A stretch of 37,262 nt of DNA. Source: Treponema sp. (lineage in GTDB: Bacteria; Spirochaetota; Spirochaetia; Treponematales; Breznakiellaceae). Shown piece after piece: positions 24,296-36,890 of the stretch. The notes beneath the pieces are model-generated. The model was not told the origin of the DNA and searched no databases. It saw only the letters and a list, made by a program, of their open reading frames with translations. The first letter of the stretch is position 1. Each line of letters opens with the position of its first letter. A program made the translations under genes and the position numbers. Location of the stretch: assembly GCA_031256635.1 (NCBI GenBank), contig JAIRQF010000070.1, forward strand, positions 1 through 37,262, read 5' to 3'.

Positions 24296-25009
24296 ATGGA
24301 AGAAAGCCCGCACTCACCCGTGTCACGTATCTGGCTGGATAGCCTTAGTACAGACGAACTGATAAAGTACGCAGACTCTTACGGAGTTGACATCCCTGCG
24401 GAACTGGAGAGGATATTCATTATCGAAGAAATTCTGGAAGCCGCCAGCATAGACATACAGGAACCTGAAGACCTTATCGAAGTTAATCCGTCCTATTCCG
24501 AACCGGCGTTACTGCCAAAACAATACAATATTTCCTACATCGAAGTGATTGTAAGGGATCCGCTTTGGGTTTTTGCTTTCTGGGAAATAAAGCTGCATGA
24601 CAGGGAAATCCATGAAAACGCAAAGAATTTCGGGGGTTATTTCCTGAGGGTCATTCCATTGGACAAGGAAGGAAATGAGCGTGAATCGAATGAGAACACC
24701 TTCACTGTTTCTGTAAGCACGGAGGACTGCGCAAGATATCTGGGATTCGCAGGCTATTCGAATAATGAAACAGAAACAAACCCGAAAAATGGCGACTTAA
24801 AAAATTTAAATTGTTATGTGATTAAACTTGGCGTAGTGCGCGGAAGTTCGGAACTGTTAATAGCGTCTTCCTCTCCGTTTACCCTTCCCACATTAAGCGA
24901 AAATGATAATATCGCTGATTTAAGCCGCAATCCGCTGCTCCGTCTTTCAGGCGTGCAGGATTTATCAGTAATAAAGAGTAAAGACCGTCATATCAGGGCC
25001 AAGAGGTAA
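24296..25009 (+). CDS. DUF4912 protein with SAP/Rho-N-like start
   Basis: Residues 10-48 (RIWLDSLSTDELIKYADSYG then a helix ending EEILEAA) look like a two-helix SAP or Rho-N type motif. Residues 78-200 match DUF4912: the block YIEVIVRDPLWVFAFWEIK is its most recognisable part, followed by the FFLRV-like strand YFLRVIP and a late strand YVIKLGVV. DUF4912 proteins have no established biochemical role but are frequently encoded beside GH57 proteins. Here the GH57-fold gene starts 8 bases after the stop, so the two are co-transcribed. GGAG lies about 7 bases before the ATG. There is no signal peptide; it is cytoplasmic. A carbohydrate-binding role is inference from its neighbour. Confidence 0.85.
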   Translation: MEESPHSPVSRIWLDSLSTDELIKYADSYGVDIPAELERIFIIEEILEAASIDIQEPEDLIEVNPSYSEPALLPKQYNISYIEVIVRDPLWVFAFWEIKLHDREIHENAKNFGGYFLRVIPLDKEGNERESNENTFTVSVSTEDCARYLGFAGYSNNETETNPKNGDLKNLNCYVIKLGVVRGSSELLIASSSPFTLPTLSENDNIADLSRNPLLRLSGVQDLSVIKSKDRHIRAKR

Positions 25010-25017
25010 TAAAATTT

Positions 25018-26637
25018 ATGGATTTCCGTTATGCGATCTCCTTTGTTCTGGAAGCGCATTTGCCGCTTGTAAGAGAATACAGCAAGGAAGAAGATCTGAC
25101 ACATTCAGGCGAGGAAGTCCGTTTTTTTGAATATATATCGGAAACCCTTCTTCCGCTTCTTGAAGTGTTAAGCAAACTGGAAAACGATCATGTGCCTTTC
25201 CGGCTGGGACTCGCGATTTCACCTTCCCTTTGCCACATGTTATGCGATGAGTATCTTCAGAAAAAGTATCTTGCCTTCGTTGACAAACAGATCGATTTCG
25301 GCAGGCATGAACTGGAGCGGACCATCAGTGATGAAAAAGACAGCGGAGCTTTTAACAAACTCGCTCAAATTTATTACAACCATGTTGTGGACAGAAGAAT
25401 CGCCTATACGGAGAAATATGAAAAAAACATTTTAAAGGCGTTTGATTTTTATAAACGCAGGGGAAAAGTTGAAATTCTCGGCTGCTGCGCGACAAACGCC
25501 TTTTTGCCTTTCATAAGCCACAATCAGGAATCTTTGCAGGCGCAAATGGAAACGCCGACATCTATTTTCCGCCGCCACTTTGGAAGCTGCTCTCAGGGGT
25601 TCTGGCTGCCGTGTCTTGGCTGGACTGAGGCAATAGAGCCGTATTTAAAGGCGTACAACTACAGTTACACAATTATCGACAGCCACGGCCTTTTCTTCGG
25701 CAGTCCGGCGGCGGAAAAGGGCAGTTTTGCGCCGGTAAAAACACCTAACGGAACTTTTGTTCTTGCAAGGGATCTGTATGCGGCGCAGGAGATAGAAAAA
25801 ATTACAAATGATGAATTATTCCGCAATAATAACCGCGATATCGGTTATGAACTTCCGCATGATAAAGTCAGTCTTTTTCAAAGCGCGGAAGGCAGGAGAA
25901 GCATGACAGGGTTCAAGTACTGGGCGCATCATTCATCAAACGGCAAAAAGAATGCGCAGGATAATATTTATAACCCGCAGGCGGCACAGGAAAAAGTGCT
26001 TGAGTATACAAGAGCGTTTCTGGATAACACCGCGGCAAGGCTTGAAGAAGCGTCCAAAAACATGAAAGACGCGCCAATCATTCTTTACGCGAATAACGCG
26101 GATAATTTCGGCAGGTTATGGCACGAAGGCCCAATGTTTCTTGAGTCGCTTTTTCGCTTGGCAGCCGGCAATAAAGATATAAAATTTGTCTGCCCTGGCG
26201 AATATATCTACAGACAGAGCATTACATCACTTCAGGTTGTAACCCCGGATTTTTCATCCGGATGCGAAAACGGCTATGCCGAAACCTGGCTGGATGTGTC
26301 AAATGACTGGATATACCGCCATTTATACCGCGCAATGGAAAGAATGACAGAGCTTGCGGAGCGCTTCCCTGACGACACAGGCTTAAAAGAGCGCGCGCTG
26401 AATCAGGCTGCCAGGGAGATATTGATTGCTCAATCCTCAGACTGGCCCGCGCTTTTATACAGGCAGGATTCCACGGAATATGCGCGAAACAAGGTGGAAA
26501 ATTCGCTTCGCAATTTTACTACGATTTATGAAGCGCTCGGCAGCAACTATATCAGCACCGAATGGCTGACTACGCTTGAACGCCGCCACAACATTTTCCC
26601 GAATGTCAATTACCGCGTCTTCCGCAGAAAGAAATAA
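25018..26637 (+). CDS. GH57-fold protein with substituted catalytic motifs
   Basis: The whole 539-residue chain aligns by eye to GH57 glucan branching enzymes (DUF1957-type): the FEYISETLLPLLEVLSKLE region, the ATNAFLPFI strand, GFWLP at 194-198, and FGRLWHEGP at 364-372. However, the key residues differ. The first motif, normally HAHLPYVRH, reads EAHLPLVRE (12-20). The nucleophile motif, normally WLPE, reads WLPC with Cys199. The acid motif, normally DTELFGHWW, reads NADNFGRLW, so Asp is replaced by Asn360. Loss of both catalytic acids predicts a protein without branching or hydrolase activity, perhaps a glucan-binding or regulatory pseudoenzyme. It is translated right after the DUF4912 gene. 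The start is acceptable but the ribosome binding site is poor, suggesting coupling. Confidence 0.82.
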   Translation: MDFRYAISFVLEAHLPLVREYSKEEDLTHSGEEVRFFEYISETLLPLLEVLSKLENDHVPFRLGLAISPSLCHMLCDEYLQKKYLAFVDKQIDFGRHELERTISDEKDSGAFNKLAQIYYNHVVDRRIAYTEKYEKNILKAFDFYKRRGKVEILGCCATNAFLPFISHNQESLQAQMETPTSIFRRHFGSCSQGFWLPCLGWTEAIEPYLKAYNYSYTIIDSHGLFFGSPAAEKGSFAPVKTPNGTFVLARDLYAAQEIEKITNDELFRNNNRDIGYELPHDKVSLFQSAEGRRSMTGFKYWAHHSSNGKKNAQDNIYNPQAAQEKVLEYTRAFLDNTAARLEEASKNMKDAPIILYANNADNFGRLWHEGPMFLESLFRLAAGNKDIKFVCPGEYIYRQSITSLQVVTPDFSSGCENGYAETWLDVSNDWIYRHLYRAMERMTELAERFPDDTGLKERALNQAAREILIAQSSDWPALLYRQDSTEYARNKVENSLRNFTTIYEALGSNYISTEWLTTLERRHNIFPNVNYRVFRRKK

Positions 26638-26657: not shown

Positions 26658-27938
26658 CTAAAGATCCAGCCTTTGCATGTCATCGACGCGCTGCATAATA
26701 TTTTCGCGCGCATTCATAATGGCAAGGCTTTCTATAGCAGGCTGGTAGCGCGGATTGATGCGCAGCGCTTCTTCCCAGCAGTATCTGGCGTCTGCGGCGT
26801 TTCCGCGGGAGTAAGCGTCATGTCCCAAAAGATACAGTTCTTCAACCCTGTTTGACGCCGCTATACGCCCGCCGTCGCCCAGATCGAGACGCACTCCCAT
26901 ACTTACCCTGTTCAGCGGCTGCAATTGCGTAAGCAAATCCAATGTATAGTTAATATCAATTGAAAGTCCGTTCAGGTTAACCGCGCTGCCTATATTAATG
27001 CGGCTGCTTCCGGCCTTGTACATAAAACCCGCGCGCATTGATAAAAAATTGGTAATATTAACAGAGACGCCAAGAGAGGCATAGGGTTTTTCAGAAAGTG
27101 AAAAATCAGTCAAATTTATGGGAAGGGTAAAATCAAGGCCAATGGTAAGCGGCCGGATAGGCTTATATGAAATTGCGGCGTTTAAAGCGGTAGGCAGAGG
27201 ATCATCCATCGCGGGAGGGCCGAGATTACGCACAACAAGGGCGGCGGAAGCGTTTTTCTCTCTTGCTGTATAACTTTTTAAAAAATCAAATCTTGTAAGA
27301 AAGCCGATATCCGCCATCGCCATGAACGCGGATTGGGACATACCCGAACCGCTGATAATATTGTCATAATTGTCGGTATAATCGGGCATTACCCGGAAAG
27401 CGCCTTTTAAATTAACTCCCATGGAAACACCTGAAAAATTAAATCTCTGGAAAAAATTATAGGAAATATTTAAAATGGCAACTCCTTCCGAATAATAACC
27501 TCCGGATACTCTCTCACCGTAGATATTATATTCAGTAAAAGGGGTATACAGCCATTTCATACCGGTTCCAAAACCGAGGCTGGAGAAACGGGAGGTGTAA
27601 GCTATCGATTCCATTTTAGTATCCGCAATCCAATTATTGTGAAAAAATGCAAGTTCGGATTTTCCAAGCATGGAAGAGCCCGCAGGGTTAAACTCCAGAA
27701 AGGAAACATCGTCCGAAACAGCGGAAAAAGCTCCGCCCATACCTTCGGCGCGTCCTCCAATCGGGATATTTAATATCGGAAAAGCAGTTAACCCGGCATT
27801 ATTGTCAATGCCGTAAATATTATTAAGATAATCAGCCATGTTTCCGTAAGTATCCTGTCCTTCGGAGTCAAATACAAATATAAGTGAAGTTAATATCAGA
27901 TGGGCGGTCAGAAAAACCGCTTTTTTGGTCTTTGTCAT
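26658..27938 (-). CDS. UPF0164-type outer-membrane barrel with C-terminal TPR
   Basis: Residues 1-28 are a signal peptide. The segment IGGRAEGMGGAFSAVSDDVSFLEFNPAG (about 45-72) is the hallmark of the PorV/UPF0164 group, related to FadL-type barrels and expanded in Treponema. Alternating strands follow up to about residue 365 (for example LSMRAGFMYKAGSSRINIG). The last 60 residues form a TPR-like helix pair (YLLGHDAYSRGNAADARYCWEEALRINPRYQPAI). ATG 27938 is preferred; the frame also allows TTG at 27944, and neither has a clear ribosome binding site. Transport of fatty acids or other hydrophobic molecules is proposed for the family but not proven. It is divergent from the TPR/SpoIIE operon. 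Confidence 0.83.
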   Translation of the reverse strand: MTKTKKAVFLTAHLILTSLIFVFDSEGQDTYGNMADYLNNIYGIDNNAGLTAFPILNIPIGGRAEGMGGAFSAVSDDVSFLEFNPAGSSMLGKSELAFFHNNWIADTKMESIAYTSRFSSLGFGTGMKWLYTPFTEYNIYGERVSGGYYSEGVAILNISYNFFQRFNFSGVSMGVNLKGAFRVMPDYTDNYDNIISGSGMSQSAFMAMADIGFLTRFDFLKSYTAREKNASAALVVRNLGPPAMDDPLPTALNAAISYKPIRPLTIGLDFTLPINLTDFSLSEKPYASLGVSVNITNFLSMRAGFMYKAGSSRINIGSAVNLNGLSIDINYTLDLLTQLQPLNRVSMGVRLDLGDGGRIAASNRVEELYLLGHDAYSRGNAADARYCWEEALRINPRYQPAIESLAIMNARENIMQRVDDMQRLDL

Positions 27939-27983
27939 TAACAATTATTGGCGGAATCCTGATATTTGAGGTTAATCCAAAAC

Positions 27984-28106: not shown

Positions 28107-31091
28107 ATGAAAATGTCGGAATTTGCCCGGATAAAAGCAATTTTTCTTATTTCAATCTTTCTTTTTCTACTGCCGGTCTTAGCGGTATTTGGGGGCGGTG
28201 GCAGGGAAACGGAGCTTACAAGGGCGGATGAGCTGATAAATAACAAGCTGTACGACGACGCTATTATACTTTTAAGCGATTTTACAAGGCGTAATCCGGA
28301 TTATTTTGATGAAACACAGAAGCGGCTTCACAGAATTTATCAAATACGGGAAGATTTTAACCGCGCCGCAGACGAATTAATAATTACGCTTTTGGATGAC
28401 CCGGATAACAATGAAAAAATATATACGCTTACAAGGTATCTTTACACGCTGGAACACGAAAACAGCCCCATTATGATTAACTTTGTCGCAAGAGCGCAGG
28501 AAATCGCGCTTTTTAACATCAACAGGAACAAGCTGCGCGGTATAATGGAAAGGGGCGGAAACTTGCTGGAAAGGGGAGAAAGTTATTCTGCGCTTCAAAC
28601 ATATGCGGAAGGCATGACAATTATGCGCGATGATTTTTACGCGGGAAATTTTACAGAAAGCAATAAAAGCGAAGTCAGGCGTGAAGCGCAAAGGATAGAT
28701 TCAATTCTTGCTTCTTTCCGGCAGACAAGCGCGCAGTTAAGCTCATCATCGGCGGAATATATCCGCGCCATTGAACGCGGCGATATGAGCATGATACGGG
28801 AAACATCAGGGCAATTATCATCCGCTTCCGACAGATTTCATTCGTTAAAACAGGAGCTTTATACATCAAATAATATATTTAACAGGATATTAAATGAAAT
28901 AAGATCCGCAAATCCGGATATAGGCGACAGAAATCATCTTGCGTTTGTTTCGGTAATTATTAACGGACGATCAGGCGAATCAATACAGGAAGGGATGCTT
29001 GGAGCATTCGATATATTCTGGAATATTTCAATCGATCCTGTTTACAGAGCAATCGCGTCCTATATGGAAAGAGTAAAAAACATGTATATCGCCGCGATAA
29101 ACGAAGGAAATTATTTTATTGACACATCTTCCCTGAATACAATGGCATATCATGTAAATTTTTCAAAGATTCTTTTTGAAAAAAAACGGCAGTTGATTGA
29201 AAGTTCAGATTCGCAGACATTTATTGTACAGGGAAATAGTGTTTTAATTTCAGATATCCGGCCGTACATTGAGATAAGCGCTTTAAACGAAGCCGGAAAC
29301 TCCCTGAATCAGGCGGTAAACGCGGGTCTGCGCAGGAACATCGATCTCTCATCGCTTGACCGCCGTAACGAAGGAAACATTACAGCATCAGACGCGTTCG
29401 GAATTGAACAGCAGACCATAATTATACTAAATGATCTGCAAAATGAAATTGACGCAATAATCGCAAACGCAAACGCAGTCAACACGGAATTGAATGATTA
29501 TTACCGTGTTACGCATATAACAGACGCTGTAAGAGCAATCGAGAATATACACACGCAGTTCCTCGCGCAGGAACAGCAGTCAATTAACAGATATTTCACC
29601 ATTGCGCATCAAAATTTACAAAGTACCCTTAATACAAGAAGAGGCGAACTGGAAACAGGAAGAAGATATATTTACGGACCCCGCGGAGAAGAAGAAAGTT
29701 TTACGGCATTGCGTTATCCTTCACAGGCGCTGCCGGTATTAACAGCCATGCTTGCGGCCGCTTCAGCTGATCTGGATAACGCCAATGCCTTAACAGGGCT
29801 GTCCGCCGCTCCGGAAATTGCGGCTTCAAGCGCCGGTTATCAGGTTACAATCAGGGAATTAACGGCGATTGTCGCGCAGGGCCGCGAACTTCTGGAAGCC
29901 GCGCGCAGCCGCAGCGCGCAGGCGGAAGCGTACAGGCAGGAAGGAGAGCGCCTTTTCTCCGAAGCGCAAAACGCTTTTCAAAGACGGGATTTCAGCACCG
30001 CGCGGGATCGCATCGAGCGCGCGTCTGTCAGATTCGGCGATTCTCTTTTTTTGCAGGATTCTGCTTCTGTACGCGAAATGCGCGATGTTCAATTGATCAA
30101 TCTGGGACAGTCTATCGCCTCCGCGGAAAACGAAACGGTAATAGCGGAAGTGCGCAGTCTTTTAAACAGCGCGCGTAACTCGTACTTTAACGGAAATTTC
30201 GTGCAGGCGGAGGACAGTCTTGTAAGGGCGAGAAACCGCTGGCATACCACAAACCCGGAGGAAAATGAAGAGGTTTCCCTGTGGCTAAGCATTGTGCGCA
30301 ATGCGTTATCTGCAAATACAGGAAGGGTGATATCGCCGACAGCTCCACTGTACCCCGAAATGAGCCAGCTTTTAAGCCAAGCGCAGAGAAATTACGAAGA
30401 AGGAGTGCGCTATATAAACACAAATGAGCGGACGCCCGGACTTGCGAAATTTGACGAAGCGCGGCAGCTTACAAGAGAAGTAAAAATTGTGTTTCCTCTT
30501 AATCAGGAAGCAGGCATTCTGGATCTGCGGATTGAACAATTTATCGATCCGGCCGAATTCAACGCTACGTTTGAACAGCGCATCAGAAACGCGGTAGCAG
30601 GGACCAAAACGCGGTCAATAGAGGCATTCGCGGACCTTCAGAACCTCGCGGAAATAAATCCGAATTATCCTAACATCAGGGCTCTGATAAACCAGGCGGA
30701 AATTGATATGGGATACCGCCCGCCGCCTGTTAATCCTGCGGAAATCGCGCGTTCAAACGAGTTAACGGCTTCCGCAAACCGGATAGTACAGGCAAACCAA
30801 ACGGCGCAATATGAAGTAGCCCGTCTTCAGCTTGATCAGGCGATTACCTTAAACCCCGACAATACAGAAGCAATGCGCGTAAGGGACATACTGCTCGGAA
30901 GAATGAGCATTCCCGGAACCATCATCCTTACAATGGATGATGAAGCCAGTTATCAGCAGGCGTTACGCGAACTAAACGCGGGCAATGTCCTTGTAGCTTA
31001 CGCGCGTGTGGAAGCGCTTTTGCAAAATCCAAGAAACCGGAATATAACAAAGCTGCTAGAATTACAGCGGAGGATACAATCGGTATTATGA
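28107..31091 (+). CDS. Giant exported helical/TPR-like repeat protein, 994 aa
   Basis: The first 30 residues contain a basic start and a hydrophobic stretch (FLISIFLFLLPVLAVFG) followed by small residues, so it is exported or membrane-anchored in the periplasm. The rest is almost entirely helical. TPR-like units are visible near residues 35-60 (INNKLYDDAIILLSDFTRRNPDYF), 635-665, 705-735, 790-815 and 940-975 (LRELNAGNVLVAYARVEALLQNP), with long coiled-coil-like stretches between. No catalytic motif is seen. The stop overlaps the ATG of the SpoIIE receptor gene by 4 bases, so the two are made together and probably interact. ATG 28107 or 28113 may be used; no ribosome binding site is visible. 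Similar large proteins seem specific to Treponema-like spirochaetes. Confidence 0.8.
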   Translation: MKMSEFARIKAIFLISIFLFLLPVLAVFGGGGRETELTRADELINNKLYDDAIILLSDFTRRNPDYFDETQKRLHRIYQIREDFNRAADELIITLLDDPDNNEKIYTLTRYLYTLEHENSPIMINFVARAQEIALFNINRNKLRGIMERGGNLLERGESYSALQTYAEGMTIMRDDFYAGNFTESNKSEVRREAQRIDSILASFRQTSAQLSSSSAEYIRAIERGDMSMIRETSGQLSSASDRFHSLKQELYTSNNIFNRILNEIRSANPDIGDRNHLAFVSVIINGRSGESIQEGMLGAFDIFWNISIDPVYRAIASYMERVKNMYIAAINEGNYFIDTSSLNTMAYHVNFSKILFEKKRQLIESSDSQTFIVQGNSVLISDIRPYIEISALNEAGNSLNQAVNAGLRRNIDLSSLDRRNEGNITASDAFGIEQQTIIILNDLQNEIDAIIANANAVNTELNDYYRVTHITDAVRAIENIHTQFLAQEQQSINRYFTIAHQNLQSTLNTRRGELETGRRYIYGPRGEEESFTALRYPSQALPVLTAMLAAASADLDNANALTGLSAAPEIAASSAGYQVTIRELTAIVAQGRELLEAARSRSAQAEAYRQEGERLFSEAQNAFQRRDFSTARDRIERASVRFGDSLFLQDSASVREMRDVQLINLGQSIASAENETVIAEVRSLLNSARNSYFNGNFVQAEDSLVRARNRWHTTNPEENEEVSLWLSIVRNALSANTGRVISPTAPLYPEMSQLLSQAQRNYEEGVRYINTNERTPGLAKFDEARQLTREVKIVFPLNQEAGILDLRIEQFIDPAEFNATFEQRIRNAVAGTKTRSIEAFADLQNLAEINPNYPNIRALINQAEIDMGYRPPPVNPAEIARSNELTASANRIVQANQTAQYEVARLQLDQAITLNPDNTEAMRVRDILLGRMSIPGTIILTMDDEASYQQALRELNAGNVLVAYARVEALLQNPRNRNITKLLELQRRIQSVL

Positions 31092-34000
31092 TGCGAAAAT
31101 GCGTAAAAAATAAAAATTTTTCACTGTATTCAATAAAAAAACACGCGTTATTTTTGGCGATTGTAATCTTAACAGCGCAGAATCTTTGCGCAGTTGATCT
31201 ATATTGGGAAGAACCGGCTGTATTTTCTCCCGGAGAAGGCACATTTCCAGTAAGCGCGCACTCAGGTAATTTTTCGGTTATCGCGTGGCAGGAAGCTTCA
31301 CCTAACGCATCAGGCGGCGGTTCCATAAATGTCAGCATTGCCGTAAAGGAAACAGGAGGCAATTGGGAACATGGAGGAATCGCGGGCGGGCCTTACGCGT
31401 ATCCCGGCGCGGAACCGTCAATATTAAGCCTTGTAATTGATAACCGCGGCAGAATAATAATCGCGGCGGCGGCGGGAGACGCGCAGGCGGAGATACTGAT
31501 ATCAGAGGACAGGGGCCGCACATTTACAGGACGAATGTTGAATCTTGGCGCGGATAATTCCGTCGCTCCTAAATTGTTTGTGCGCTCAGACGGAGGTTAT
31601 CTTCTTTTTACAACAAGAGGCAGATCGGAATCAATGTCAATCTTCTATTCCCGCTCCGATGACGGAATAAACTGGTCGCCTTTTGAATCATTTGTTACGG
31701 AAAGCAATCTGACGCTGAACTTTCTTCCGGCTCACGCAAGCTCAGGACAAAGAGACGTAGTTTTTTTTCAGTCGCTTTCAATGGGATCCGATTCAATGTC
31801 CACTTTCCAGCTATTTTATAAAACCAGCGACAATGGCGGAAGAACATGGACAGCGGCAAGACAGTTCACTGTATTTCAAGATCCGGTAATACAGACCCGT
31901 TCGGATCCGCGCAGTTTTGACAATCAGCGTCCCCATCTTACAGGATACGGAAATAATTTATTACTGGTATGGGAAAGGCGTTTTACAAATCAATCGCCGC
32001 AAATATACAGCGCTGTAATTTCGTCAAGCGGAAATATAATCGGCAATGTTGAGCGGGTGAACAGCGTAGAAGCCTATTGCCAGAACCCAATCGGTTTTAT
32101 TTACGATAATGTTCCTGTCGTTGTATGGTTCGACAGCCGCAGCGGCAATAACAGCGTCATTCTGGCCCAGCGCGGCGAGTATAACTGGCAGAATTATCAG
32201 CTTTCAAGCGCCGCATCTGAGGCGTCTTTCGCAAGGCCGGTTGCGGCCAGGGACGGCACGTACGTTTTCTGGCAGACAACATCAAGGGATTCAAAACGAA
32301 TCTACATGCTTGCTCCGGACGCGACTGTAGCAAGCCCGCAGATAACGCCGCTTAACTTTACCGCTTCAGGAGCGGGCAGGTCGGAAAGAACAAGAGTTAC
32401 ATGGAATATTCCTGAGGATACTTCCGGTATTTACGGCTTTTCATGGACATGGAATCAAAATGAAAGCTCTGTGCCATCTGAGCAAATAATGGTTTACAAT
32501 ACCGGAAATACGCAGAATCTGAACCTTGAACTTGACACCGGCGCGGACGGAGAATGGTATTTTAAAATCCGCGCGGCGGATTACGCAGGCAACTGGTCCG
32601 CGCCTTCGCAGGTCATGTATTACAGAAAAACCGCAGCGCCGCCTGAACTGACAATTATTGAACCGGAAACAGATGAACGCGGATTTCTTCATTCCAATAC
32701 ATTCGAAATATTATGGGAACCGTCAACAGATCCGTATACGGCAGGCTATACATGGAATCTTCAATATTTGGGAGCAGCCGCTCCGAATAACATTGTTATT
32801 AATAATGTTGTTATTAGCGCTCCGCCGTCAAATATAACCGGAACGTCAGCGTCGGCAAATTTCGTAAATCAGGAAAACGGCGCTTACGCGTTTACGGTAT
32901 CCGCCATTGATCAGGCGGGCAATATAAGCAGGCCCTCCAGCATAATAATTAACACAAATAAATTTATACCCTTTACAAGCGTCACCTTTATTGACGCGCA
33001 GCAGAACGAACAGGGAGAACTTTCTATCAGGATAATCGGGCGCGGATTTTCAACTAACGGCGTGATAACGTCGGTTATTCTGGAACAGGCAGGCCGCCCC
33101 AATCAGGTAACAACAGATTTTAACATTGTCTCGGACAGGGAAATAGAAGGCATTGTTTTTCATATAACCGATGAAGGCCAATACAATATAAGTCTGGAAC
33201 ATTCGACAAGAGGCCGGTATACGGCGGACTCATTCGTTCCGGCGGCCAGAACAGGAACCGTAAAATTCGGCGATTATACAGAAGAATGGAAACCTTCATG
33301 GAGAATACAGCAGAATAAACTGTTAACAATAAATCCAATCATGGCGCTTGCCGTTATTTTGATCATTTTCTGCGCGCTTGGCGCAGCCGCGATAATCAGA
33401 GGTATAGGCGGAATAATTACGGAAGGCTCAGCCATCAGGCAGGAAGCGCTTGCGATCATTACAGGAGATTTTATGCCGACGGAAAAAAAACAAAAAATTG
33501 TAAAAATTCAAAAAAGGGGAAGAGGGCTCCGGTTTAAGCTTTCATCATTTACAATAGGGCTTATTCTTCTTGTGGTTATAATGATTTCAATACCCATGTA
33601 CATATTAATGACAAATACCCAGCGCGAAACACTGCTGAACAGTTTATGGGATCGATCAAAAGTTCTGCTGGAAGGAATCGCTTCCAGCTCAAGATCATAT
33701 CTGCCAATGGCGCTTCAATCCATGGGAGAAAGAGGTGCGCTGGAATTAATGTTCCTTCCGTCCCAGTCAGCGGCTCTTCCGGAAGCGAAATATATAACGA
33801 TAACAGGTTACGGTATTAATTCGATTCATACTGATCATGTTTGGGCGACAAATGATCCGGCTATAGCCTCAAAGATTGACACAGCAGAGCTGCGAAGCGG
33901 CGTGTCAAGATTAACCGATTCAATTACTCCGTTTTATGATGAATTAAGCAGCCGGCTTGATAAAAGCGCGCAGGAAAGAGCGGGAGAGCTTTCCAAAAAT

Positions 34001-35680
34001 ATCAGGGAACTGTATGAAGAAGGCTTAAGGAGAGCGCTTGATACAGGTGCTGAAGCAGAACGCTTAAGAGCTGATATTCAGGTCGCGATCAATGATATGG
34101 AAGTTAAACTCAATGATATACTTTCACAAATATCAGGGGACATCGGATCTTATCCGCGCTTTTCGGTTGACAGAATCAGCAAGGAAGGAGACGGCACCCA
34201 TATTTTCTATAAACCGGTAATGTACCGCCAAAACGCCGATGATCATTTTTACCGCGGATTAATCAGGCTGGAAGTATCCCTTGATTCAATTATGGAAGCG
34301 ATTTATCAGGGACAGATAACACTGCTTTCAACCATCGGAATTGTCGCGTTAGCTGTAATGGCGATAGGAATAATCGCCGCGTTTATTTTCTCTGTTATAA
34401 TCATAAGGCCAATCAGAAAGCTGGTAAAACACATAGAAATAATCCGCGATACGGAAGACAAGTCAAAGCTCGCGGGCGTTGACATAGACATTAAGACAAA
34501 TGACGAAATAGCGATTCTTGGCGGCACCGTAAATGACATGACGCACGGGCTTGTTAAAGCGGCAATCGCCGCGTCCGACCTGAGCATCGGCAAGGAAATA
34601 CAGAAAAAATTTATACCGCTTGAAGTAGACAGCCACGGCAACAAGCAGTCAAGCGGCATGAACAATACGGTCAATCTTGATTTCTTCGGTTACTACGAAG
34701 GCGCAAAGGGCGTATCAGGAGATTATTTTGATTACAAAGACCTTGACGGCCGTTACTACGCAATCATAAAGTGCGATGTAGCCGGAAAGGGAATTCCCGC
34801 GGCTTTAATTATGATTCAGGTAGCGACAATGTTTATCGGCCACTTTAAAAGATGGAAACCAACCGAGAAAGGTTTTCATATCGAGGATCTTGTTTATCAG
34901 ATTAACGACTTTATCGAAGCCTTGGCTTTTAAGGGCCGGTTTGCCGCTTTTACTCTCTGCCTCTTTGACTCGCAGACAGGGCTTGTCAGATTCTGTAACG
35001 CCGGAGACAATGTCATTCATTTTTATGATGAATCCGAGAACAGGGTAAAAGCGATCACCCTTCCGCAAACTCCCGCAACAGGAGTGCTTCCCAATATAAT
35101 GATACAGGCTACAGGCGGTTATAAAGTTCAGACCGCGCAAATAGACAAGGGCGATATACTGCTGCTCTACACAGACGGTATTGAGGAAGCAAAAAGAAAA
35201 TTCAGGGATAAAAAATTCAGGGAAATAACATGCAAGGAAGGGCCCGCCGATACTCCTCATGAAAACCACCTTTGCGGACAGGCGGACGAAGAGATGGGAG
35301 CGGATCGGGTAGAAGCGATTATAAACGCAGTAATGGCGCGGGAAATCTATACCCTGCACAAACATCACAACGGCGAAGGCAATATTGAGCTGCAGTTTGA
35401 TTTTTCAGGCTGCGAGGGCCGGGCAGACGAAGTAATCATGGCTATGGTATCGGTAGAAAAAATATTCAGATGCTATAAAACCGAAAACTCAGGAGATGAA
35501 TCCCGCGTACTTGTGGATAAAAAAGTCGACGAATTCCTAAAAAACCACTTCCTGCAATACAGACGCTACTGTTCGCATACAAAAGAATTTCCTGAAAATC
35601 CCGCGTATATGTATTATACTCATGTTATGGAAGACGAGCAGTATGACGATTTGACCATACTGGGGATAAAACGTAAGTAA
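31088..35680 (+). CDS. Giant membrane receptor with SpoIIE/PP2C-type serine phosphatase
   Basis: The 1530-residue chain starts with a signal sequence (about 12-34). Next come a sialidase/BNR-like propeller with repeated Asp-box-like pieces such as SEDRGRTFTG and TSDNGGRTWTA (about 40-430), fibronectin-like domains (about 430-640) and another beta domain to 735. Membrane segments lie near 747-775, 819-842 and 1077-1104. A predicted periplasmic helical sensor lies between the last two, followed by a HAMP-like linker (1105-1160). The SpoIIE phosphatase domain (about 1170-1530) keeps the metal-binding Asps: Asp1212 in GDYFDY, Asp1230 in CDVAGKG, Asp1363 in YTDG and Asp1520/1521 in YDDLTIL. It should be catalytically active. 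It likely senses an extracellular or envelope signal and dephosphorylates an anti-sigma antagonist or other protein. The partner is not in this window. Confidence 0.87.
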   Translation: MMRKCVKNKNFSLYSIKKHALFLAIVILTAQNLCAVDLYWEEPAVFSPGEGTFPVSAHSGNFSVIAWQEASPNASGGGSINVSIAVKETGGNWEHGGIAGGPYAYPGAEPSILSLVIDNRGRIIIAAAAGDAQAEILISEDRGRTFTGRMLNLGADNSVAPKLFVRSDGGYLLFTTRGRSESMSIFYSRSDDGINWSPFESFVTESNLTLNFLPAHASSGQRDVVFFQSLSMGSDSMSTFQLFYKTSDNGGRTWTAARQFTVFQDPVIQTRSDPRSFDNQRPHLTGYGNNLLLVWERRFTNQSPQIYSAVISSSGNIIGNVERVNSVEAYCQNPIGFIYDNVPVVVWFDSRSGNNSVILAQRGEYNWQNYQLSSAASEASFARPVAARDGTYVFWQTTSRDSKRIYMLAPDATVASPQITPLNFTASGAGRSERTRVTWNIPEDTSGIYGFSWTWNQNESSVPSEQIMVYNTGNTQNLNLELDTGADGEWYFKIRAADYAGNWSAPSQVMYYRKTAAPPELTIIEPETDERGFLHSNTFEILWEPSTDPYTAGYTWNLQYLGAAAPNNIVINNVVISAPPSNITGTSASANFVNQENGAYAFTVSAIDQAGNISRPSSIIINTNKFIPFTSVTFIDAQQNEQGELSIRIIGRGFSTNGVITSVILEQAGRPNQVTTDFNIVSDREIEGIVFHITDEGQYNISLEHSTRGRYTADSFVPAARTGTVKFGDYTEEWKPSWRIQQNKLLTINPIMALAVILIIFCALGAAAIIRGIGGIITEGSAIRQEALAIITGDFMPTEKKQKIVKIQKRGRGLRFKLSSFTIGLILLVVIMISIPMYILMTNTQRETLLNSLWDRSKVLLEGIASSSRSYLPMALQSMGERGALELMFLPSQSAALPEAKYITITGYGINSIHTDHVWATNDPAIASKIDTAELRSGVSRLTDSITPFYDELSSRLDKSAQERAGELSKNIRELYEEGLRRALDTGAEAERLRADIQVAINDMEVKLNDILSQISGDIGSYPRFSVDRISKEGDGTHIFYKPVMYRQNADDHFYRGLIRLEVSLDSIMEAIYQGQITLLSTIGIVALAVMAIGIIAAFIFSVIIIRPIRKLVKHIEIIRDTEDKSKLAGVDIDIKTNDEIAILGGTVNDMTHGLVKAAIAASDLSIGKEIQKKFIPLEVDSHGNKQSSGMNNTVNLDFFGYYEGAKGVSGDYFDYKDLDGRYYAIIKCDVAGKGIPAALIMIQVATMFIGHFKRWKPTEKGFHIEDLVYQINDFIEALAFKGRFAAFTLCLFDSQTGLVRFCNAGDNVIHFYDESENRVKAITLPQTPATGVLPNIMIQATGGYKVQTAQIDKGDILLLYTDGIEEAKRKFRDKKFREITCKEGPADTPHENHLCGQADEEMGADRVEAIINAVMAREIYTLHKHHNGEGNIELQFDFSGCEGRADEVIMAMVSVEKIFRCYKTENSGDESRVLVDKKVDEFLKNHFLQYRRYCSHTKEFPENPAYMYYTHVMEDEQYDDLTILGIKRK

Positions 35681-35695
35681 ATCAGGAGGTTAACA

Positions 35696-36010
35696 ATGAC
35701 ATTCAGCGAAAGAATGAAAGACATGCTGGAGCAGGGCTGGGCAGTATCAAAAGACTTTGCCTTAAAAGCGGGAGCAAAAGCGCAGGATTTAGGCGAGAGG
35801 GGAGTATTAATGTGGGACATCAAACAGCTTGAAAATCAGGCTGAAAAACTCCTTGCAAAACTTGGAAATGAAGCCTATGTCGCGTTTACAGAACGCGGAC
35901 AGGACACAATTGAACGCGACGCGATCGAATTCCGGTCATTATTGGAAGAACTCGCATTAATAAAAGAACAAATCGAGAAAAAAGACACAGAACTTAAAAA
36001 AAAGGGCTAA
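35696..36010 (+). CDS. Small coiled-coil protein, 104 aa
   Basis: The gene starts 15 bases after the receptor gene, with AGGAGG 6 bases before the ATG, and is the third gene of that operon. The product is charged and helical. Residues 38-65 (WDIKQLENQAEKLLAKLGNEAYVAF) and 75-104 (FRSLLEELALIKEQIEKKDTELKKK) form two heptad-like helices, a coiled coil or helical hairpin. There is no signal peptide or membrane segment, so it is cytoplasmic. The family is not recognised by name. It could be an adaptor or substrate of the phosphatase; this is inferred only from position. Confidence 0.75.
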   Translation: MTFSERMKDMLEQGWAVSKDFALKAGAKAQDLGERGVLMWDIKQLENQAEKLLAKLGNEAYVAFTERGQDTIERDAIEFRSLLEELALIKEQIEKKDTELKKKG

Positions 36011-36020
36011 AACAACGATG

Positions 36021-36065
36021 TGACTAATGAGGAATCAGCGAAAGCATATCACTCCGCATTAGTCA
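36021..36065 (+). other. Long inverted repeat after the receptor operon
   Basis: TGACTAATG (36021-36029) pairs perfectly with CATTAGTCA (36057-36065). After one mismatch, three more pairs extend the stem inward. The loop is about 19 bases. No T-run follows directly (a T6 lies some 25 bases on), so it may be a Rho-independent-like barrier, an RNA-processing signal or a binding site. Confidence 0.45.
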
Positions 36066-36078
36066 TTATCGCAGCCAC

Positions 36079-36107
36079 TTGATTCATTTAGTTTTTTATA
36101 ATATAAA
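36079..36107 (+). promoter_or_regulatory. Candidate promoter of tRNA-Lys
   Basis: TTGATT (36079-36084), a 17-base spacer and TATAAA (36102-36107) lie 36 bases before the tRNA 5-prime end. A TATAAT overlaps at 36097-36102 but has no well-spaced -35. Confidence 0.5.
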
Positions 36108-36143
36108 TAAAAAGGCTCCTATGCTTCATAAAGCTTGGGACAC

Positions 36144-36216
36144 GGGCCGCTAGCTCAGTCGGTAGAGCATCGCCCTTTTAAGGCGGTGGTCGGAGGTTCG
36201 AATCCTGCGCGGCTCA
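36144..36216 (+). tRNA. tRNA-Lys (anticodon UUU)
   Basis: A full cloverleaf can be drawn. The acceptor stem pairs 36144-36150 with 36209-36215, with one G-U. The D-arm is at 36153-36168 with the GG of the D-loop. The anticodon stem pairs 36170-36174 with 36182-36186, and the loop at 36175-36181 has anticodon TTT (36177-36179). The T-arm carries TTCGAAT. The discriminator is A, and CCA is not encoded. The T-stem has one G-G mismatch (36193/36207). It decodes AAA and AAG lysine codons. Confidence 0.95.
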
Positions 36217-36380
36217 AATTTGTTAATTTATAGCTTTAAGCGATATCGTAAATGAGTTAAATCTAAAAAAGCAGGTATCATCTCTCCTATAACATAATAA
36301 TTGATATCTTTTCAAAATAATCAAGAACTAAAATGCCTTCCTGGGCGTCTAATAATAAGAAGAGCGGGAGAAATTTGGCG

Positions 36381-36890
36381 GTGAATAATATAACAATCAA
36401 GAGCATTGCAGAAAAAGCTTTAAGGGGCGATGAAAAAAGTTTTGTCGAGTTATGCGATTTAATGAAAACAAAACTTTACCGTACCGCTAAAGGTATTCTC
36501 GGCGATGAATCACTGGCTCTTGATGCGGTAAGCGAAGCTGTTTTTCGTGCATTTAAGGGAATAAAACGGCTTCGTGAACCTAAATTTGTGGAAACATGGT
36601 TTATCCGCATAATAATAAATGCGGCAAATGACTTGTATAGGAGGCAAAAACATGAAGTAACAATGAAAGACGTGCCCGAAGGCATATATCATGAAAATCA
36701 TAACGAAATGAAATTCAATCAAATGATTGAATCATTGCAACCTGAGCTGCGTGAAATAATCAGCCTGAAATATTATTCCGGTTATACTCTTAATGAAATA
36801 GCGGGAATATTAAAAATACCTGAAGGTACTGTAAAAAGCCGTTTGAACAGGGCGTTAAATTTGTTAAGGTTGGAGGTTATGAATGAATAA
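36381..36890 (+). CDS. ECF-type RNA polymerase sigma factor
   Basis: Region 2 covers about residues 15-80: the helix ALRGDEKSFVELCDL, the ESLALDAVSEAVFRAFKGI segment that contacts core and -10 DNA, and FVETWFIRIIINAANDLYRR. Region 4 covers about 112-165, with the helix-turn-helix YSGYTLNEIAGILKIPEGTVKSRLNRALNLLR that reads the -35 element. The 169 residues fit the family. The frame is open from ATG 36333, but GGGAG sits 10 bases before the GTG at 36381 and no site precedes 36333, so GTG is preferred. The end overlaps the next ATG by 8 bases. Such factors usually activate their own operon; the AT-rich 160-base leader holds no promoter I can name. Confidence 0.9.
   Translation: MNNITIKSIAEKALRGDEKSFVELCDLMKTKLYRTAKGILGDESLALDAVSEAVFRAFKGIKRLREPKFVETWFIRIIINAANDLYRRQKHEVTMKDVPEGIYHENHNEMKFNQMIESLQPELREIISLKYYSGYTLNEIAGILKIPEGTVKSRLNRALNLLRLEVMNE

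Follow-up and report, generated by a model that had tools for sequence, protein, structure and literature searches.

A GH57-fold predicted pseudoenzyme and its conserved DUF4912 partner in Treponema and other spirochetes

The locus described here raises the question of why a GH57 protein whose catalytic residues have been replaced should be maintained next to a DUF4912 protein, and what the two could be doing together. The window, that is the whole stretch of 37,262 nucleotides analysed (contig JAIRQF010000070.1 of a Treponema sp.), carries on its plus strand the DUF4912 gene (24296..25009, 237 aa; PF16258, E 3.6e-11), followed after 8 bp and on the same strand by the gene for a predicted GH57-fold pseudoenzyme, an AmyC-type branching-enzyme homologue (25018..26637, 539 aa; PF03065, E 2e-24; PF09210 (BE_C), E 4.4e-36). 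The open reading frames, the Pfam matches and the match to the solved structure 2b5d all agree with the original prediction of two adjacent genes of these types. The sequence AAGAGG (25001..25006, plus strand), located within the 3' end of the DUF4912 gene, is Shine-Dalgarno-like and is plausibly the ribosome site of the GH57 gene. No convincing terminator was found in the region, where the single weak match is on the opposite strand and shuffled sequences gave more; the spacing of the two genes and their conserved arrangement point to co-transcription. A scan of genome contigs gave one locus. The pair is followed by a convergent UPF0164 + TPR gene (26658-27944), as is the case at 25 other loci in families f1 and f3 (families, genomes and loci are given by our own f, G and L numbers). 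At 31088-36890 three consecutive genes encode a SpoIIE/HAMP protein of 1530 aa, a protein of 104 aa with no match in Pfam, and an ECF-type sigma factor; a SpoIIE/HAMP gene adjoins the DUF4912-GH57 pair in L166 too.

The closest solved structure to the GH57 protein is AmyC of Thermotoga maritima (2b5d, E 7.3e-88), a glycogen-branching enzyme in which E185 is the nucleophile, D349 the acid and H10 the polariser of the acid (PMC6616209). A structural comparison with a characterised GH57 branching enzyme had been proposed as a check, and it shows that the fold is whole, since superposition of the AlphaFold model (pLDDT 95.1) on 2b5d gives Z 46.4 and 1.8 A over 512 residues at 34% identity, while the catalytic residues are replaced. 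The domain order (GH57 barrel, inserted helices, BE_C) is that of AmyC, and both barrel and BE_C domain score above the Pfam cut-off in the window protein; the NCBIfam branching-enzyme models match as well, far under their cut-off (206 vs 920 bits). What sets the protein apart from AmyC is the replacement of nucleophile, acid and polarising His together with the loss of most groove aromatics. On alignment with AmyC, C199 (25612..25614, plus strand as for all residues given here) occupies the position of the nucleophile E185, and N360 (26095..26097) the acid/base position D349, both as had been predicted. The third predicted loss, HAH to EAH, holds for its first residue: within E12-A13-H14 (25051..25059; AmyC H10, H12) E12 falls on H10, but His14, the equivalent of H12, is retained, so that the HxH pair has lost a single histidine. 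In addition, R35 (25120..25122) replaces the aromatic gatekeeper W29, N160 (25495..25497) replaces the His of the ATH motif (AmyC H146), and F261, W356, W402 and F466 correspond to N, L367, G415 and A478. This leaves 5 of the 14 listed active-site residues, and W411 alone from among the glucan-binding aromatics W29, F261, W356, W402, W411 and F466. In the clade of the window protein, 20 of the 22 proteins with E or D at position 12 have R35, and N12 is found together with W35; the E/D12-R35 pairing looks like a structural salt bridge, E12-R35, filling the former active-site region in place of H10 and W29. In this E12 clade E, C, A, N, S, D or G can stand at the nucleophile position and N, S or K at that of the acid, a variability which indicates that no replacement chemistry is conserved.

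The history of these replacements was addressed by gathering orthologues from the order of the window's organism (n = 86) and from elsewhere in the phylum (n = 47), aligning them with AmyC and building a tree; the AmyC-type set H10, H12, E185 and D349 is abbreviated as HHED in the four-letter shorthand used for the orthologues. The full HHED set is present in 33 of the 47 proteins from outside the order and in none of the 86 from within it, which indicates that the active enzyme is ancestral and that its erosion was stepwise and repeated. His10 was replaced first, by N in most of the order, and N, Q or T is also found in f8, f10, f11, f16 and part of f13. Later changes within the order were E185 to Q in f4/f5 and D349 to N in most of f1 or to E in f2, with the set scrambled in f3, and independent losses occurred in f12 (D to S), f11 (E to D) and one genome each of f13 and f16 (E to Y). 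Parsimony on the orthologue tree requires at least 15 changes at E185 and at least 13 at D349. Five members of the order retain both E185 and D349; full inactivity is therefore not to be assumed for every species, and, judging from these residues, those five may retain activity. The f4/f5 proteins have lost H10 and E185 and retain nearly all of the groove aromatics.

Loss of the catalytic residues has not been accompanied by loss of selection. In the closest genus pairs listed, dN/dS is 0.06-0.13 for GH57 and 0.09-0.22 for DUF4912, and the GH57 gene is thus under purifying selection (dN/dS about 0.1). It is the distribution of constraint which has changed, as seen in column entropies, figures which depend on sampling and come, within the genus, from sequences that are not independent of each other. 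Active homologues have a mean entropy of 0.11 at active-site columns vs 1.40 overall, in the window's genus the values are 1.03 vs 1.00 (random column sets were as low in 56% of cases), and in f3 the active site is even above average (2.44 vs 1.80); in f4/f5 it is still constrained (0.22 vs 0.89). The C-terminal helical BE_C domain (residues 435-535; 26320..26622, plus strand) is by column entropy the most conserved part in the pseudoenzymes, with a mean in the genus of 0.48 vs 1.16 in the barrel, and its relative constraint has increased with respect to the active homologues (p 7e-4 in f4/f5, 1.6e-10 in the genus and 7e-8 in f3). Taken together, an average groove and a shifted BE_C domain show that constraint left the groove and stayed or grew in the BE_C domain.

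The second constant of the locus is the partner. The DUF4912 gene lies immediately upstream of the GH57 gene in every locus of the order examined, and overall in 114 loci from 19 families. Across 296 genomes of the phylum DUF4912 was found in 154, GH57 in 167 and both in 151, the three genomes with DUF4912 and without GH57 each being 73-85% complete. In f25, f30, f40, f43, f47 and f53 both genes are present and not adjacent. In two genomes with an unlinked DUF4912 gene the neighbours were LytB and an ABC1-like kinase, or DHH, metallophosphoesterase and YbeY, with no theme common to the two. This distribution makes the pairing older than the catalytic loss. The original prediction of a pseudoenzyme with a DUF4912 partner is thus well supported, by the residue losses on the one hand and by an ancient and near-obligate pairing on the other. 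In L133 (4946-7000) and 12 other loci (f8, f11, f13, f15) a divergent second GH57 gene with DUF3536 precedes the pair on the other strand.

The DUF4912 protein itself passes the curated cut-off of its family (43.8 bits against PF16258, cut-off 29.4), the Pfam match comprising residues 77-149. Its predicted model (pLDDT 83) is composed of an N-terminal Rho_N/SAP-like helical domain, a linker, the beta-sandwich DUF4912 domain and short C-terminal helices. The N-terminal module (residues 10-53; 24323..24454, plus strand; model helices 11-16, 19-28 and 39-53) was assigned from a weak profile match: the DUF4912 family profile matches Rho chains in the PDB over residues about 8-56 with E 0.003-0.02, a likeness to the N-terminal domain of Rho which does not suffice to assign a family, and an Ish1 match is under cut-off (E 0.041). 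Unlike Rho, the protein is without the ATPase part. The window protein is a PF16258 member whose N-terminus weakly resembles Rho_N/SAP domains. DUF4912 companions of active enzymes share this type of N-terminus, except in f21 and f25, where it is a tail that is short or rich in lysine; in L149 (3370-4188, f25) a long lysine/alanine-rich N-terminus takes the place of the Rho_N-like helices. These types of N-terminus hint that nucleic acid or some other polyanion is bound. The sandwich (residues 80-199; 24533..24892, plus strand), which covers the Pfam match, resembles fibronectin-III/Ig-type domains in the predicted model, with a best VIA-align hit of the model to FnIII domains at Z 10.0 and 2.8-3.2 A over 93 residues, a common fold from which no claim of family is made. 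FnIII domains predominate among the Foldseek and VIA matches, and no carbohydrate-binding module is among the matches listed.

Whether the pair could serve glycogen metabolism was addressed by profile searches. Of 35 genomes tested, 30 had a glycogen synthase match above cut-off and 31 a GT35-type phosphorylase. A GH13 branching enzyme was not detected by these searches in any genome of the order tested, some of which are incomplete, and PF02806 was absent; TIGR01515 was above cut-off in G084 only, a genome from outside the order. Genome G000 and further genomes of the order carry glycogen synthase without a detected GH13 branching enzyme. A 717-aa GH13 protein found in these genomes was considered as a replacement branching enzyme and rejected, as its sequence reads as that of a GlgX-like debranching enzyme. 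With this GH13 read as GlgX-like and PF02806 not found in the order, replacement by a GH13 branching enzyme does not explain the GH57 loss. The glucan of the genomes with glycogen synthase would be linear, or branched either by an unidentified enzyme or by residual GH57 activity in some species. Particular attention is warranted by G046 (f3), a single contig of 1.14 Mb which retains both genes of the pair at full length and in which glycogen synthase, GT35 phosphorylase and GH13 (branching-enzyme profile) were not detected by profile searches; a role in glycogen alone fails to explain this retention. The reduced genomes of f7, Borrelia-like by inference, are without the pair.

A different context is offered by mraZ-mraW, the head of the dcw cluster. 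The pair is directly upstream of and co-directional with mraZ-mraW at 19 loci (L042, L102, L104, L108, L110, L112, L114, L118, L119, L121, L122, L124, L125, L127-L131 and L133) in eight Spirochaetia families (f2, f6, f9, f11, f12, f13, f15 and f17), of which f2 belongs to the window's own order, with gaps of 93 bp to 1.3 kb between pair and mraZ. This link no longer holds in most of the order, mraZ being about 26 kb away in G046 and on another contig in G000. That this gene order is conserved in eight families may reflect shared regulation or old synteny, and we regard a possible ancestral dcw link as a lead.

The reading which we favour, and hold to be probable though well short of certain, is that of an ancient two-gene module in which the GH57 protein is now a non-catalytic scaffold that binds or stabilises the DUF4912 protein, independently of glycogen. 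The spirochetes would have had from early on a module composed of a DUF4912 protein (an N-terminus of the nucleic-acid-binding type and a beta sandwich) and an AmyC-type GH57 protein, the latter a working glucan-branching enzyme in the ancestor of the phylum. In the window's order catalysis would have been lost stepwise and the GH57 protein would have become a folded partner, with its C-terminal helical domain as a working surface. Inactivity, physical binding between the two proteins and the surface used are what we infer here, and the pair probably serves something other than making glycogen. Several observations count against this: five members of the order retain E185 and D349 together, the two genes are not adjacent in the six families named above, and, as no GH13 branching enzyme was detected in the genomes of the order tested while glgA and a phosphorylase are present in most of them, the branching function would otherwise be vacant. 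The original prediction had instead proposed a glucan-sensing or glycogen-organising module, in which the dead groove would hold glucan and DUF4912 would transmit or anchor. The f4/f5 proteins do show such a lectin-like pattern, aromatics without H10 and E185, glgA is found in most genomes of the order, and beta-sandwich folds such as that of DUF4912 occur in carbohydrate-binding modules too. In the window protein the five aromatics have been replaced, the active-site positions of the genus evolve like average ones, and the pair persists in G046; the idea is accordingly weak for this protein and improbable in general, and could survive for the f4/f5 relatives (NHQD, aromatics mostly retained).

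An active but altered enzyme, one that relies on different acidic residues (E12, D362) or on a nucleophile of an unusual kind for branching or for a different reaction, would fill the vacancy left by the undetected GH13 branching enzyme, and both the near-invariance of E12 in its clade (E, once D) and a Glu at the nucleophile position in 8 of its 22 proteins could be seen in this light. We find it distinctly unlikely, since nucleophile and acid positions are free to vary among close relatives, E12 co-varies with R35 in the manner of a structural salt bridge, and D362 aligns on AmyC E351, a non-catalytic residue. A decaying pseudogene, which repeated loss of active-site residues might by itself suggest, is contradicted by the selection data and hardly credible: the frames are full-length in essentially all genomes, dN/dS is about 0.1 and the C-terminal domain is conserved. 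The linkage to mraZ-mraW bears on the process rather than on the mode of action. A module acting in cell division or envelope growth, or in its control, with an exapted GH57 protein, is compatible with the scaffold, and the eight families, f2 among them, speak for it; the gaps leave room for a separate mraZ promoter, the pair and mraZ are not neighbours in most of the order, and the linkage could be inherited gene order without function, for which reasons we rate it as rather improbable. The more specific proposal that the GH57 enzyme was recruited, before or during its catalytic loss, into a DUF4912 module for cell division or envelope growth or its mraZ-mraW control is unlikely too, if a little less so; on that proposal the division or envelope role would be what has kept it in a reduced genome where no glycogen metabolism is detectable.

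GH57-like proteins with substituted catalytic residues were already known, as had been stated in the original prediction: a group of 60 sequences, closest to branching enzymes and missing one or both catalytic residues, has been named GBE-like (Martinovicova and Janecek, 2018; PMC6037648), and the window protein, being closest to branching enzymes and missing both catalytic residues, fits this group; the passages found on it mention no Treponema, no partner gene and no function. Searches of the literature on GH57 pseudoenzymes, DUF4912, GH57 in Treponema, TP0358 and treponemal structural modelling found nothing useful. To the known group the present analysis adds a history that covers the order, a fixed partner, a shift of constraint and the persistence of the pair in a genome without detected glycogen synthase or phosphorylase. 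An anonymous "GBE-like" annotation thereby becomes a case in which catalysis was lost across an order and the partner stayed fixed, and it is misleading to call these treponemal GH57 genes branching enzymes or amylases. The finding also raises the question of what, if anything, branches glycogen in an order whose tested genomes yielded no GH13 branching enzyme. As neighbouring families carry active and inactive GH57 proteins within this one gene pair, a direct comparison of the post-catalytic role is possible.
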